Assembly: GCA_000739535.1 (NCBI GenBank)
Contig: DF820477.1
Location: 135,511 to 176,984 of the forward strand
Length of the DNA: 41,474 nucleotides
Direction: 5' to 3'
Origin: Candidatus Vecturithrix granuli
GTDB lineage: Bacteria > Moduliflexota > Moduliflexia > Moduliflexales > Moduliflexaceae
In this document: positions 25,606 to 29,078 of the stretch, piece by piece
Numbering within the stretch: the first letter of the stretch is position 1
Layout: each line of letters begins with the position of its first letter
Position numbers and translations under genes: made by a program
The notes under the pieces: model-generated
What the model was told of the DNA's origin: nothing
Seen by the model: the letters and a program-made list of their open reading frames with translations, nothing else
The model's database searches: none

Positions 25606-25926
25606 TGTTTTTCATCATACCGCCTGTCTGCCACAGGCAGGAGTGAACGTCCCGCTCGTGACAACTCCTTTGATTTTTCGATAATTTACTCCTTGACATT
25701 TTTGGGTTGTCTTGAGGTGAGTAAAATTTAGAATAGCGTTTTAGTCAATAGAATTTAATAAAATATTTCCGTCTTTTTGAAACTCTGATCAAAGTAATGA
25801 ATTTTGAAAACTTCAAGGAAATGTCGAGGAAACGTTTTTCAAAGAAACCGGGTTTTTCGAAAAAATCCGATTTCTGGTGTGCAAAGAAATTATTTGGAAA
25901 AATGTCCGAACTATAAGGAGATTCCC
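25606..25926. promoter_or_regulatory. Divergent promoter region between lyase gene and aroE, with dispersed repeat copy B
   Basis: The 320-bp gap is AT-rich. TTGACA occurs at 25693-25698 and TAGAAT at 25729-25734, but not at ideal spacing. The segment 25824-25893 is a second copy of the hairpin repeat seen after eno: gaggaaac, then AAACCGGGTTTTT with a decayed second arm, then aaagaaatta. It lies just before the aroE ribosome binding site AAGGAG. Confidence 0.5.
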
Positions 25927-26793
25927 ATGTACTATCCTTCAATTCACACAAAGCTGGTGATCCTGTTAGGTAATCCTCTGGGACATAGCTACTCTGCGCT
26001 CATGCACAATCATGTCTTTGAAAAACTGAACATGGACTATTGCTACTGGCCGGTTGAGGTCTCGGCCGAAAATTTACCCACAGTATTTGCCGGATTAACC
26101 AGGATGAATGTGGCAGGTTTTAATGTGACCATCCCTCACAAAGTCCGCATCATTGCATTGCTTGACGAGATCGACCCATTGGCTTCTGTCATTGGAGCCG
26201 TCAATACGATTTGCATCAAAGAAGGGCGCACGCGCGGCTATAACACTGATGGGGAAGGCTTTCTGAAAGCATTGGAAGCCGAACTTGACATATCCACCGC
26301 CGGCAAGAATTTTTTCATTCTTGGGTGCGGCGGGGCCGCCAGAGCCATTGCCATGACGTTTGCCTTCCACGACGCCGGAAAAGTCTTTCTTTGCAACCGC
26401 ACGATCTCAAAAGCTGAGAAGCTTACTGCTGAAATTAATGAAAAAATTCGCCCTTGCGCCGAGGTCGTTCCGCAAATCTCGGCTGAAATGACTCCGGCGT
26501 TACGCACCTGTCAGGTGTTGGTCAATAGTACCAGCGTGGGAATGCACCCGGACGAAGATCGCATCCCGATTGACGAAGCGCTCTTATTTCAAGAGCTTGC
26601 GGTAGCCGATATTGTCTATAATCCCTTGATGACTCGTTTACTCCAGGCTGCCCAGCATACCGGCTGCCGTATTGTTAACGGACTGGGCATGTTGGTCTAT
26701 CAGGGGGCTGAAGCATTCAAACTATGGACTGGCATCACGCCTCCGGTTCGAGAGATGTTTGCGGTGCTACGTGAAGGAAAAAAGGGGACATGA
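25927..26793 (+). CDS. aroE: Shikimate dehydrogenase
   Basis: A 288-residue NADP-dependent shikimate dehydrogenase, reducing 3-dehydroshikimate. It has GNPLGHSYSALMHNHVF at the N-terminus (shikimate-binding Ser residues), the catalytic lysine in NVTIPHK near 65, NTDGEGF near 101-107, the Rossmann loop ILGCGGAARAIA near 123-134, the dinucleotide-binding NRTISKAEKL and the C-terminal NGLGMLVYQGAEAFKLWTG. The ATG at 25927 follows AAGGAG; an in-frame start 41 codons earlier falls inside the repeat and is rejected. The gene ends about 110 bp before the aromatic leader peptide that precedes DAHP synthase, so the downstream genes can be regulated separately. Confidence 0.96.
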   Translation: MYYPSIHTKLVILLGNPLGHSYSALMHNHVFEKLNMDYCYWPVEVSAENLPTVFAGLTRMNVAGFNVTIPHKVRIIALLDEIDPLASVIGAVNTICIKEGRTRGYNTDGEGFLKALEAELDISTAGKNFFILGCGGAARAIAMTFAFHDAGKVFLCNRTISKAEKLTAEINEKIRPCAEVVPQISAEMTPALRTCQVLVNSTSVGMHPDEDRIPIDEALLFQELAVADIVYNPLMTRLLQAAQHTGCRIVNGLGMLVYQGAEAFKLWTGITPPVREMFAVLREGKKGT

Positions 26794-26803
26794 TATTTTT
26801 TTA

Positions 26804-26809
26804 TTGACA
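26804..26809 (+). promoter_or_regulatory. Candidate -35 box upstream of the leader peptide
   Basis: A consensus TTGACA lies 11 bp after the aroE stop codon. No good -10 sequence occurs at 16-18 bp. TTGAAA (26863-26868) with TATATG 17 bp later is an alternative but leaves little leader RNA. The true start site cannot be fixed from sequence. Confidence 0.3.
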
Positions 26810-26900
26810 AGATTATGTTTGTCCTTCAATTGATGAACAGTATTGATTAATTTGATGTCGAGTTGAAATGTCACATACGTATTTTTATATGGAAAGCAAG

Positions 26901-27017
26901 ATGAACGTATTCGTCCCTCATATTGAAGATATGATGATTATTCCGGTACGATATTATTTTTATTTTTGGTATTGGTCCGGGGGTGGGACGACTTTAAGCT
27001 CCTGGCAAGGAGGATAA
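26901..27017 (+). CDS. Aromatic leader peptide (putative attenuator of DAHP synthase operon)
   Basis: A short open frame of 38 codons with ATG at 26901 preceded by GGAAAG; an in-frame ATG-ATG at 26931 would give 28 codons. The peptide contains eight consecutive aromatic codons, YYFYFWYW, at 26952-26975, then SGGGTTLSSWQGG and a TAA at 27015-27017. It ends 24 bp before a strong intrinsic terminator and about 220 bp before DAHP synthase. Such a run is the hallmark of ribosome-mediated attenuation, as in the trp and phe leader peptides, but here all three aromatic amino acids are represented, fitting control of the shared first step. The peptide has no other likely function. Coding is inferred from composition and context, not conservation. 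Confidence 0.8.
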   Translation: MNVFVPHIEDMMIIPVRYYFYFWYWSGGGTTLSSWQGG

Positions 27018-27054
27018 AAATGCCCCTTTGCTTCCCATGCTAAAGCCCACTCTC
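26979..27054 (+). promoter_or_regulatory. Antiterminator pairing of the aro leader
   Basis: Leader bases 26979-26987 (GGGGGTGGG, spanning the Gly codons) can pair with 27046-27054 (CCCACTCTC, with two G-U pairs), and CTTT at 26992-26995 with AAAG at 27042-27045, leaving a four-base bulge. This uses the 5' arm of the terminator and so excludes it. A ribosome paused on the Tyr/Phe codons leaves the leader strand free; one that reaches the stop codon covers it. A third segment TCGTCCC (26911-26917) is exactly complementary to GGGACGA (26985-26991) and could sequester the antiterminator when translation fails. Confidence 0.65.
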
Positions 27055-27080
27055 TTTATACAGGAGAGTGGGCTTTTTTT
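27042..27080 (+). terminator. Rho-independent terminator of the aro attenuator
   Basis: A 13-bp stem (AAAGCCCACTCTC at 27042-27054 and GAGAGTGGGCTTT at 27064-27076) with a 9-base loop, followed by seven T residues. It lies 24 bp after the leader peptide stop and well upstream of DAHP synthase. It could also be read as the aroE terminator, but the leader peptide between them argues for attenuation. Confidence 0.9.
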
Positions 27081-27237
27081 ATTGTGAAGAAGGCTTTTCA
27101 GCGAATAGTGACGATCTTCATTTCACTTGACACGAGAACATTCGACAATCTACTATTCAGGCATCCAACACAAAAATTGTTTAAGCCTTTCCCTCGGGAA
27201 GAATGTGCTTAGAGGATGTTGTTGGAAGGAGCATATC

Positions 27238-28053
27238 ATGAAGAATCTGAAATTGGCGTCTCGTGAAACCAGTGAGCGCACAATCATTCAAATCGGCGAC
27301 CTGAAAATTGGACAGGATTTTCTGCTGATCGCCGGGCCATGCAGCGTTGAAAGTGAGGAACAGATGTTTGAAACCGCTCAGGCAGTCAAACAGGCCGGAG
27401 CCAATATGTTACGCGGCGGCGCGTTTAAACCCAGAACTTCCCCGTATGCGTTTCAGGGATTAGGATTGAAAGGGTTGAAAATTCTTGAAAAAGTCGGCAA
27501 AGAAATGGAACTGCCAGTGGTTACAGAAGTGCTGGATACCCGCGATGTCTCCTGGGTGTGTGAATATGTTGACGTGCTCCAGATTGGCGCCAGAAACATG
27601 CAGAATTTTTCACTGTTGAAAGAAGTTGGCAAAACTAATAAACCGGTTGTTCTCAAGCGCGGGATGTACTCAACTCTCTCTGAATGGCTCAATTGCGCCG
27701 AGTATATTTTGAATGAGGGCAACCCACAGGTCATTCTGTGTGAGCGCGGTATCCGCACCTTTGAAACCTACACCAGAAATACGCTCGATCTGAGCGCGGT
27801 GCCTGCGATTAAGGAATTGACGCATTTGCCCATTATCGTTGACCCAACCCACGGTACAGGAAAAATCAGCCTGATTCCGCCGATGAGTTTCGCCTCGGTC
27901 GTGGCTGGGGCCGATGGACTGATTATCGAAGTCCACCATAAGCCCGAAGAGGCCAGGAGCGATAAAGAGCAGGCTTTACGGCCTGAATTGTTTGCCCAAC
28001 TTTCTGCGCAAGTCTTGAAACTGAGAAAATATTACCTTGAGGAATTACAATGA
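27238..28053 (+). CDS. aroF: 3-deoxy-7-phosphoheptulonate synthase (DAHP synthase, type I beta)
   Basis: First committed enzyme of aromatic synthesis, condensing phosphoenolpyruvate and erythrose 4-phosphate. The ~271-residue product carries [15 protein letters not shown] near 30-44, [16 protein letters not shown] near 61-76, the KRGM block, the metal ligand Cys in LLIAGPC, HGTGK near 206 and [10 protein letters not shown] near 233. The length and absence of an N-terminal ACT or chorismate mutase domain indicate a type I beta enzyme probably not feedback-regulated through ACT, so transcriptional attenuation would carry the regulation. The ATG at 27238 follows GGAAGGAG. The stop codon overlaps the start of the next gene by four bases (ATGA). 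Confidence 0.95.
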
Positions 28054-29078
28054 AGAGTTACATGATTCGCGGACAAAGCGCAACGAGTCATATCCAGCTT
28101 GGCGAACCGTTTCATCACCTTGAACAATATATCGGTAAGAGAACCGCCGCAATTGTGACTGATGAAACCGTTTATAGCGTGTATCATGACCTTATGCCGT
28201 CAAAAAATATCGCCGTGATCAAGTCAGGCGAAGCTTTCAAAACACTCCAGACGGTTGAAGCCCTCTATCAGAAATTTTTGGAATATGGTCTGGATCGCGC
28301 GGCTCTGATTGTCGCTATCGGCGGAGGCATTGTGTGTGATATTGCCGGATTTGCCGCGTCCACCTATTTGCGCGGCATTTCCTTCGGATTTGTCCCCACC
28401 ACGCTGCTCGCCCAGGTTGATGCCAGCGTGGGAGGCAAGAACGGCGTCAATTTTCATGGGTATAAAAACTTGATCGGTACTTTCAATCAACCGGAGTTCG
28501 TGTTGATTGATGTTGGCGTTCTCAAAACCCTTCCTGCCAGAACCTTAGGCTGCGGTTTTGCCGAAGCCATCAAACATGGCGCTATCGCGGATGCGCAACT
28601 GTTCGCGTTCATGGAAGATCACGCCGCTGCGATCCGAAATTTAGACCCTGACTGCCTTGAACGGATTGTGAGTGATTCGATCATTATTAAATCCTCGATT
28701 GTCAATCAGGATGAAAAAGAGCATGGGGAACGCAGAAAACTCAATTTTGGACATACGGTGGGACATACCGTTGAGAACGTGCTGGGAATTCCTCACGGCG
28801 AAGCGGTTGCCATCGGAATGGTAGCTGCCGCCGAGCTTTCCCGTCAATTCGGCTATCTTACCCAGGCTGATTTCGAAAGATTAACCAATCTGCTGACCTT
28901 ATATAATTTACCGATCACGATTGATACAACAAATCGCCAGGCCTTAAAAGAAGCCCTGCACAAGGATAAAAAACGCTATGAGGAAGTTGTCAAATTTGTG
29001 CTGCTCAAGGCCATTGGAACCGCCATTGTTCAGGATGTGCCCATTGAGGAATTAAAACGACTGCTGGAGATGTTCTAA
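28050..29078 (+). CDS. aroB: 3-dehydroquinate synthase family protein (second copy)
   Basis: A 342-residue stand-alone dehydroquinate synthase. It shows [19 protein letters not shown] near 87-105, [42 protein letters not shown] near 109-151, [12 protein letters not shown], and zinc ligands in [12 protein letters not shown] and [12 protein letters not shown]. It is shorter than the AroB half of the fusion gene 5.6 kb upstream and differs in sequence, so it is not a recent duplicate. The ATGA overlap with DAHP synthase shows translational coupling, making a two-gene unit for the first two steps of the pathway. Either this or the AroKB half may be the housekeeping enzyme; a specialised secondary pathway role is possible. 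Confidence 0.93.

Follow-up and report, generated by a model that had tools for sequence, protein, structure and literature searches.

The DAHP (3-deoxy-7-phosphoheptulonate) synthase gene of Candidatus Vecturithrix granuli is preceded by a leader that very probably acts as a ribosome-mediated transcription attenuator sensing charged aromatic tRNAs, as judged by reading and folding the sequence. By every defining feature for which the analysis gave an answer, the modelled leader is an attenuator of this kind. A homologous leader stands upstream of aroA; in both copies the short leader ORF has control codons that match the product amino acids (YYFYFWYW here, YFYYFWY in the aroA copy), and in the computation the antiterminator and the terminator are mutually exclusive, the former being freed by a stall at the control codons. 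We infer that the leader is transcribed and translated, that real stalls occur, and that the antiterminator persists long enough kinetically.

The leader ORF and its surroundings

Positions below refer to the window, which is the whole stretch of DNA that was analysed (41,474 nucleotides). The leader and its neighbouring genes are as follows.

25924-26793, plus strand: aroE, shikimate dehydrogenase, upstream of the leader (TIGR00507, 260.7 bits, above cut-off)
26804-26809, plus strand: TTGACA, candidate leader promoter
26901-27017, plus strand: leader ORF of 38 codons, MNVFVPHIEDMMIIPVRYYFYFWYWSGGGTTLSSWQGG and stop; the peptide is 58% identical to that of the paralogous aroA leader
26952-26975, plus strand: control codons 18-25, Tyr Tyr Phe Tyr Phe Trp Tyr Trp, read from the sequence; the stall position here decides computed antiterminator formation
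27238-28053, plus strand: DAHP synthase, first enzyme of the shikimate pathway (TIGR01361, 393.9 bits, above cut-off)
28050-29078, plus strand: aroB, 3-dehydroquinate synthase, overlapping the DAHP synthase gene by 4 bases (TIGR01357, 353.5 bits, above cut-off)

The eight aromatic codons stand in a row and the antiterminator arm comes immediately after them: GGGGGTGGG forms leader codons 27-29 (Gly Gly Gly), so the arm is itself coding sequence. The ORF has an extra in-frame ATG at 26889. In an alignment, the candidate promoter region shares TTGACAAGATT with the sequence ahead of the aroA leader. The TTGACA at 26804-26809 has no good -10 hexamer, and a consensus scan did not recover the site. 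Read-through from aroE is another possible source of leader transcripts.

We also note a second small ORF at 27020-27043, encoding MPLCFPC in seven codons and ending at the terminator stem. It has a good Shine-Dalgarno sequence, AAGGAGG, and a well-spaced ATG (27007-27043 as a whole), and it has no counterpart in the aroA copy of the leader.

Alternative stems

The sequence-only reading had proposed that GGGGGTGGG and CTTT pair with the 5' arm of a 13-bp terminator, and that TCGTCCC can in turn pair with GGGACGA to release the terminator. All of these segments lie where they were said to lie and are able to pair. The elements are listed below.

26911-26917, plus strand: outer segment 1, TCGTCCC, pairing with GGGACGA (duplex -13.3 kcal/mol; pair probability 0.97 in the full transcript)
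26941-26946, plus strand: inner segment 1, TTCCGG, pairing with CCGGGG at 26977-26982 (pair probability 0.99 in the full transcript; same in the aroA leader)
26977-26999, plus strand: segment 2 from folding, the protector 3' arms CCGGGG and GGGACGA, overlapping the antiterminator 5' arm GGGGGTGGG plus CTTTA.GC (CCGGGGGTGGGACG is the same in the aroA leader)
27005-27031, plus strand: hairpin between the antiterminator arms, GCAAGGAGG with CCCCTTTGC, one mismatch (pair probability about 0.9 or more with the ribosome stalled in the aromatic run)
27039-27054, plus strand: segment 3 from folding, the antiterminator 3' arm, of which 27042-27054 doubles as the terminator 5' arm
27042-27083, plus strand: intrinsic terminator, stem 27042-27076 with loop TATAC and a T run after it (-24.3 kcal/mol)

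The terminator stem has 13 Watson-Crick pairs, or 15 when the inner ones are counted, and a terminator separates the leader ORF from the structural genes in both copies (-20.5 kcal/mol in the aroA copy). GGGGGTGGG at 26979-26987 pairs over nine of nine positions, two of them G-U, with CCCACTCTC at 27046-27054, and CTTT extends to CTTTA-A-GC (26992-26999), which finds its partner in GC-TAAAG (27039-27045). The computed energy of the antiterminator duplex is -18.5 kcal/mol, and that of the antiterminator fold 26975-27057, which includes the internal hairpin at 27005-27031, is -28.7 kcal/mol. An antiterminator far too weak to compete had been named as the result that would speak against the idea; these energies are not of that sort.

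TCGTCCC and GGGACGA (26985-26991) are complementary at all seven positions. Together with the inner stem TTCCGG:CCGGGG, this outer stem gives a protector fold of -29.8 kcal/mol (26901-26995, computed). The inner stem, which encloses the aromatic codons, and the hairpin at 27005-27031 were both absent from the sequence-only reading. The minimum free energy of 26889-27095 has a z-score of -4.7, owed in large part to the terminator.

A strong leader fold with alternative stems would also be expected of a metabolite-binding riboswitch or a protein-binding leader, for which translation is not needed. We regard this as extremely improbable, given that the ORFs of both copies contain seven or eight consecutive aromatic codons and that there is little conserved structure beyond what attenuation explains. 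Moreover, no leader family was matched by Rfam covariance models at gathering score. The only match in the window was an Acido-Lenti-1 RNA (Rfam RF01687, 45.5 bits) at 6-51.

Folding with a stalled ribosome

The ribosome was represented as a masked footprint extending from 13 bases before to 15 bases after the first base of the P-site codon, and the remaining RNA was folded by partition function, the transcript being cut off where segment 3 ends. Two variants of the model were used, in which pairing between the RNA on either side of the ribosome was allowed or forbidden.

With flank pairing allowed, the antiterminator forms with a probability of 0.86-1.0 when the A site is at codons 18-24; with flank pairing forbidden, the values are 0.91-1.0 at codons 18-23 and 0.62 at Tyr24, the range at Tyr24 across both variants being 0.62-0.87. 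A stall one codon later, at Trp25, gives 0.005 (allowed) or 0.17 (forbidden) for pairing to GGGGGTGGG, and from Ser26 onward the antiterminator probability is 0 in the forbidden variant. With the ribosome at codons 37-39 and flank pairing allowed, it is 0.01-0.12, and the outer protector stem stands at 0.85-0.96; at the stop codon the antiterminator is thus prevented in the DAHP synthase copy, and less clearly so in the aroA copy. The same method applied to E. coli trpL and pheL gave 0.62 and 0.87, respectively, at the control codons and 0 at the stop.

The model therefore reproduces the three-state logic of trp-type attenuation that had been suggested, with a sharpness like that of trpL and pheL, and it bears out the expectation that Tyr or Phe pauses would leave the antiterminator free (0.86-1.0 at codons 18-23 over both variants). 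A pause at the last Trp codon of the run had been thought to cover the antiterminator in part, and in the model a stall at Trp25 blocks it; Trp23, the first Trp of the run, instead behaves like the Tyr and Phe codons.

Stalls ahead of the aromatic run, at codons 2-17, favour the antiterminator too, so a general slowing of translation early in the ORF would read as shortage. When no ribosome is present, the protector is formed in a transcript that stops short of segment 3 (0.97-1.0 for GGGACG), and in a transcript reaching to segment 3 the equilibrium favours the antiterminator (0.84); the outcome without translation therefore depends on kinetics. Once the transcript is complete, equilibrium folding always favours the terminator, which implies that the modelled switch is kinetic and that the antiterminator has to be in place before the terminator 3' arm has been transcribed. 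This is the usual assumption for known attenuators.

Comparison was made with 400 synonymous recodings, using local codon usage, and with 400 dinucleotide shuffles. Mean antiterminator occupancy at the aromatic stalls of the DAHP synthase leader is 0.92, against means of 0.35 in the recodings (none of 400 as high) and 0.39 in the shuffles (2 of 400 as high). Discrimination between a stalled ribosome and one that has passed is 0.83, a value reached by 0/400 recodings and 0/400 shuffles. The score and the codon range were picked after the fold had been seen, and the counts in both comparisons are thus a guide and not a strict test.

These comparisons bear on a rival explanation, in which the terminator merely ends aroE transcription, the DAHP synthase gene has its own promoter, and the leader ORF and its alternative pairing are there by coincidence. 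A promoter-like sequence, TTGACA-18-TACTAT (27127-27156, 10/12), does lie between the terminator and the gene, and TTGACAC recurs at the aligned place in another genome of the family (G001), which has no leader. Such sites are however at chance level in a scan of the stretch (1 found, 1.5 expected), the switch score lies above that of all recodings, and the aromatic run, antiterminator and terminator recur jointly upstream of aroA, so that we consider this explanation very improbable. If the site is used, it could give basal expression that bypasses the switch.

A second leader upstream of aroA

A search of the organism's own genome (8,384,694 bases in 21 contigs) found the homologous leader at G000:C20:896257-896409, where some 150 bases are 73% identical in DNA sequence (E 1.5e-16). 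Its peptide is MSTFGFPIHPMMIIVPAGAYFYYFWYKAGGGTVLRSWQGG followed by a stop. GGGGGTGGG, GGGGGTGGGACG and the terminator arm core are common to both leaders. The second leader precedes aroA, an unassigned gene (x), aroC, chorismate mutase/prephenate dehydratase (pheA) and a prephenate dehydrogenase-like gene (tyrA); six enzymes toward Phe and Tyr thus stand behind the two leaders combined. The gap between aroC and pheA (L043 6740-6830) contains short direct repeats, about attcgttgtattctcaa.

With flank pairing forbidden, stalls from Phe21 to Trp25 of the aroA copy give antiterminator probabilities of 0.81-0.99, with 0.55 at Tyr20 and 0.62 at Tyr26, and later stalls leave at most 0.1 to segment 2. 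With flank pairing allowed, most aromatic stalls give just 0.15-0.27, and Trp25 gives 0.84; the low values arise from an upstream element, UCCCAUUC, which is able to pair with GGGUGGGA. By chance such an occupancy is seldom reached (2/400 recodings, 6/400 shuffles). The discrimination is not unusual, being reached by 88/400 recodings and 31/400 shuffles when any upstream pairing is counted, mainly because the first codons can pair over 4 bases with the terminator arm; if segment 2 alone is counted, pairing is at most 0.04 once the ribosome stands at the stop codon. The aroA copy supports the leader anatomy more firmly than it does the modelled sharpness of the switch.

The two copies, which are the only clear ones, were also compared position by position. 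MAFFT places a 2-base gap wrongly at the antiterminator/terminator core, and the core was compared by direct reading. Both leaders have the same antiterminator core, GGGGTGGG with CCCACTCT, down to the wobble positions, so that covariation speaks neither for nor against it. The thirteenth terminator pair changes from C-G to A-U on direct reading. In the aligned columns of the outer protector stem there are three changes from C-G to U-G, one from U-A to U-G, and one mismatch gained, and the inner protector stem is invariant. In the hairpin at 27005-27031, one A-U becomes G-U and the mismatch is gone, leaving it fully paired in the aroA leader. Covariation supporting the terminator alone had been proposed as a counter-argument; the sequence comparison supports the attenuation idea, covariation does not settle it, and with two related sequences none of the changes is strong evidence.

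The same comparison bears on the possibility that the nascent peptide is itself the sensor, its conserved C-terminal GGGTxLxSWQGG arresting the ribosome on a free ligand (an aromatic amino acid or a pathway compound), as TnaC does for tryptophan. The leaders agree in ten of their 12 final residues, and both have Leu32 despite a change from TTA to CTG. The conserved stretches, however, coincide with segments that pair in the RNA, namely segment 2 and the hairpin at 27005-27031, with conservation of wobble positions too, and both replaced residues fall in the linker between them. In addition, a ribosome halted at the stop codon would promote the protector stem and hence termination. We therefore judge peptide arrest to be very improbable.

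Proposed mechanism

In the attenuation model, a ribosome would translate the 38-codon peptide while RNA polymerase transcribes the leader. If Tyr-tRNA or Phe-tRNA (or Trp-tRNA at codon 23) were scarce, the ribosome would stall in the aromatic run and disrupt the protector stem, leaving GGGGGTGGG free to capture the terminator 5' arm before its 3' arm is made, and transcription would continue into DAHP synthase and aroB. If charged tRNAs were plentiful, the ribosome would reach the stop codon, TCGTCCC:GGGACGA and TTCCGG:CCGGGG would re-form behind it, the terminator would fold, and transcription would stop. The second copy would control aroA-x-aroC-pheA-tyrA in the same manner. The downstream target genes lead to the very amino acids that the leader codons read.

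A more specific version is one that we hold only tentatively. In this variant of attenuation the antiterminator arm lies inside the ORF, at Gly codons 27-29, and termination would come from protector stems re-forming behind the passed ribosome, not from a ribosome masking segment 2 at the stop. The module would have been copied onto two operons to co-regulate a large part of the Phe/Tyr pathway, with the final Trp codon of the run so placed that its stall leaves the genes off, in a lineage seemingly unable to make tryptophan.

Tryptophan synthesis

Neither the Candidatus Vecturithrix granuli genome nor G001 yielded TrpE, TrpD above cut-off or a standard TrpB above cut-off (weaker TrpB-like matches were the only ones); genomes G002 and G003 do have TrpD and TrpB. 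The lack of three genes in two genomes suggests that the family does not make tryptophan, an assembly gap being conceivable for one gene. The leaders carry Trp codons although the family may be unable to make the amino acid. If so, a response to Trp shortage would be useless, which fits the silent Trp25 and does not fit the active Trp23.

Relation to known systems

Closest in target are the leaders AroR of Corynebacterium glutamicum and uORFC-13-1 of Acholeplasma, both set beside the present leader by their descriptions. AroR lies upstream of the aroF operon and contains Phe-Tyr-Phe, at which ribosome stalling raises transcription (Neshat et al. 2014, as described in PMC11802643); it responds to Phe and not to Tyr (PMC11802643). 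As described, it resembles the present leader in having aromatic codons in a leader peptide before a DAHP synthase operon, and differs in that the present leader has eight aromatic codons, with all three amino acids represented, and recurs in a second copy on aroA-x-aroC-pheA-tyrA. The uORFC-13-1 motif, upstream of aroF, consists of a predicted uORF with one or more Phe codons and a terminator, and has been described only from Acholeplasma and environmental sequences (PMC8632094). By that description it too combines a uORF with Phe codon(s) and a terminator before a DAHP synthase gene, in a different lineage.

With E. coli trpL and pheL the leader shares control codons, antiterminator, terminator and the same type of computed stall profile. 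In trpL and pheL, with the segments under their customary names, segment 2 starts after the stop codon, as read from their sequences. Here, by contrast, segment 2 lies within the ORF, where it is read as Gly codons, and the stop comes later, so that GGGGGTGGG is left uncovered by a ribosome that has reached the stop. This is the standout difference from trpL and pheL, the two leaders compared, and no uniqueness is claimed for it.

A survey in 2010 found leader-peptide attenuators to be known mainly from Proteobacteria and Actinobacteria, and added cases from Firmicutes (PMC2965389). The present leader adds a well-supported computed case in KSB3, from an uncultured wastewater bacterium, with one module on two operons of a single pathway, and it clearly predicts the amino acids that are sensed and the codon that stays silent.

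Search for further leaders

A profile search of 59 relatives found the leader in the Candidatus Vecturithrix granuli genome only. BLAST against four genomes of the phylum gave weak matches in G002 and G003, which are not leaders, and there is no such leader directly upstream of the DAHP synthase genes of these two genomes. A scan of the genome_contigs collection for the coding motif GGGT.L.SWQGG returned 12 matches, all in open frames of at least 240 codons and none an aromatic-run leader. Among 77 TWY-TTY-TGG-TWY sites in the genome, no short ORF with a convincing terminator was found besides the two aro leaders and one further candidate; a site at L079 proved to be inside a protein-coding gene.

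The further candidate (L042 2359-2448, on contig G000:C20) encodes MMTIQTGRQAGYFWFFSGYGGVCPVPEIL and a stop, with a strong terminator after it. The genes downstream are those for a PAS-domain sensor kinase, another kinase, a response regulator and a TRAP transporter. Past the aromatic run, CTATGGC can pair with the terminator arm. The stall profile of this candidate has no clear fall at the stop codon, and it was therefore kept out of the main claim despite its equal layout.

The aro genes of G001, which is of the same family, form one cluster with no leader of this kind (L136, G001:C23:176000-195900): aroF, aroB, aroD-like, aroE-like, aroK-like, aroA, aroC, pheA-like and tyrA-like, several of these names being inferred from the first residues only. 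In Candidatus Vecturithrix granuli the same genes are in at least two places, each with a leader.
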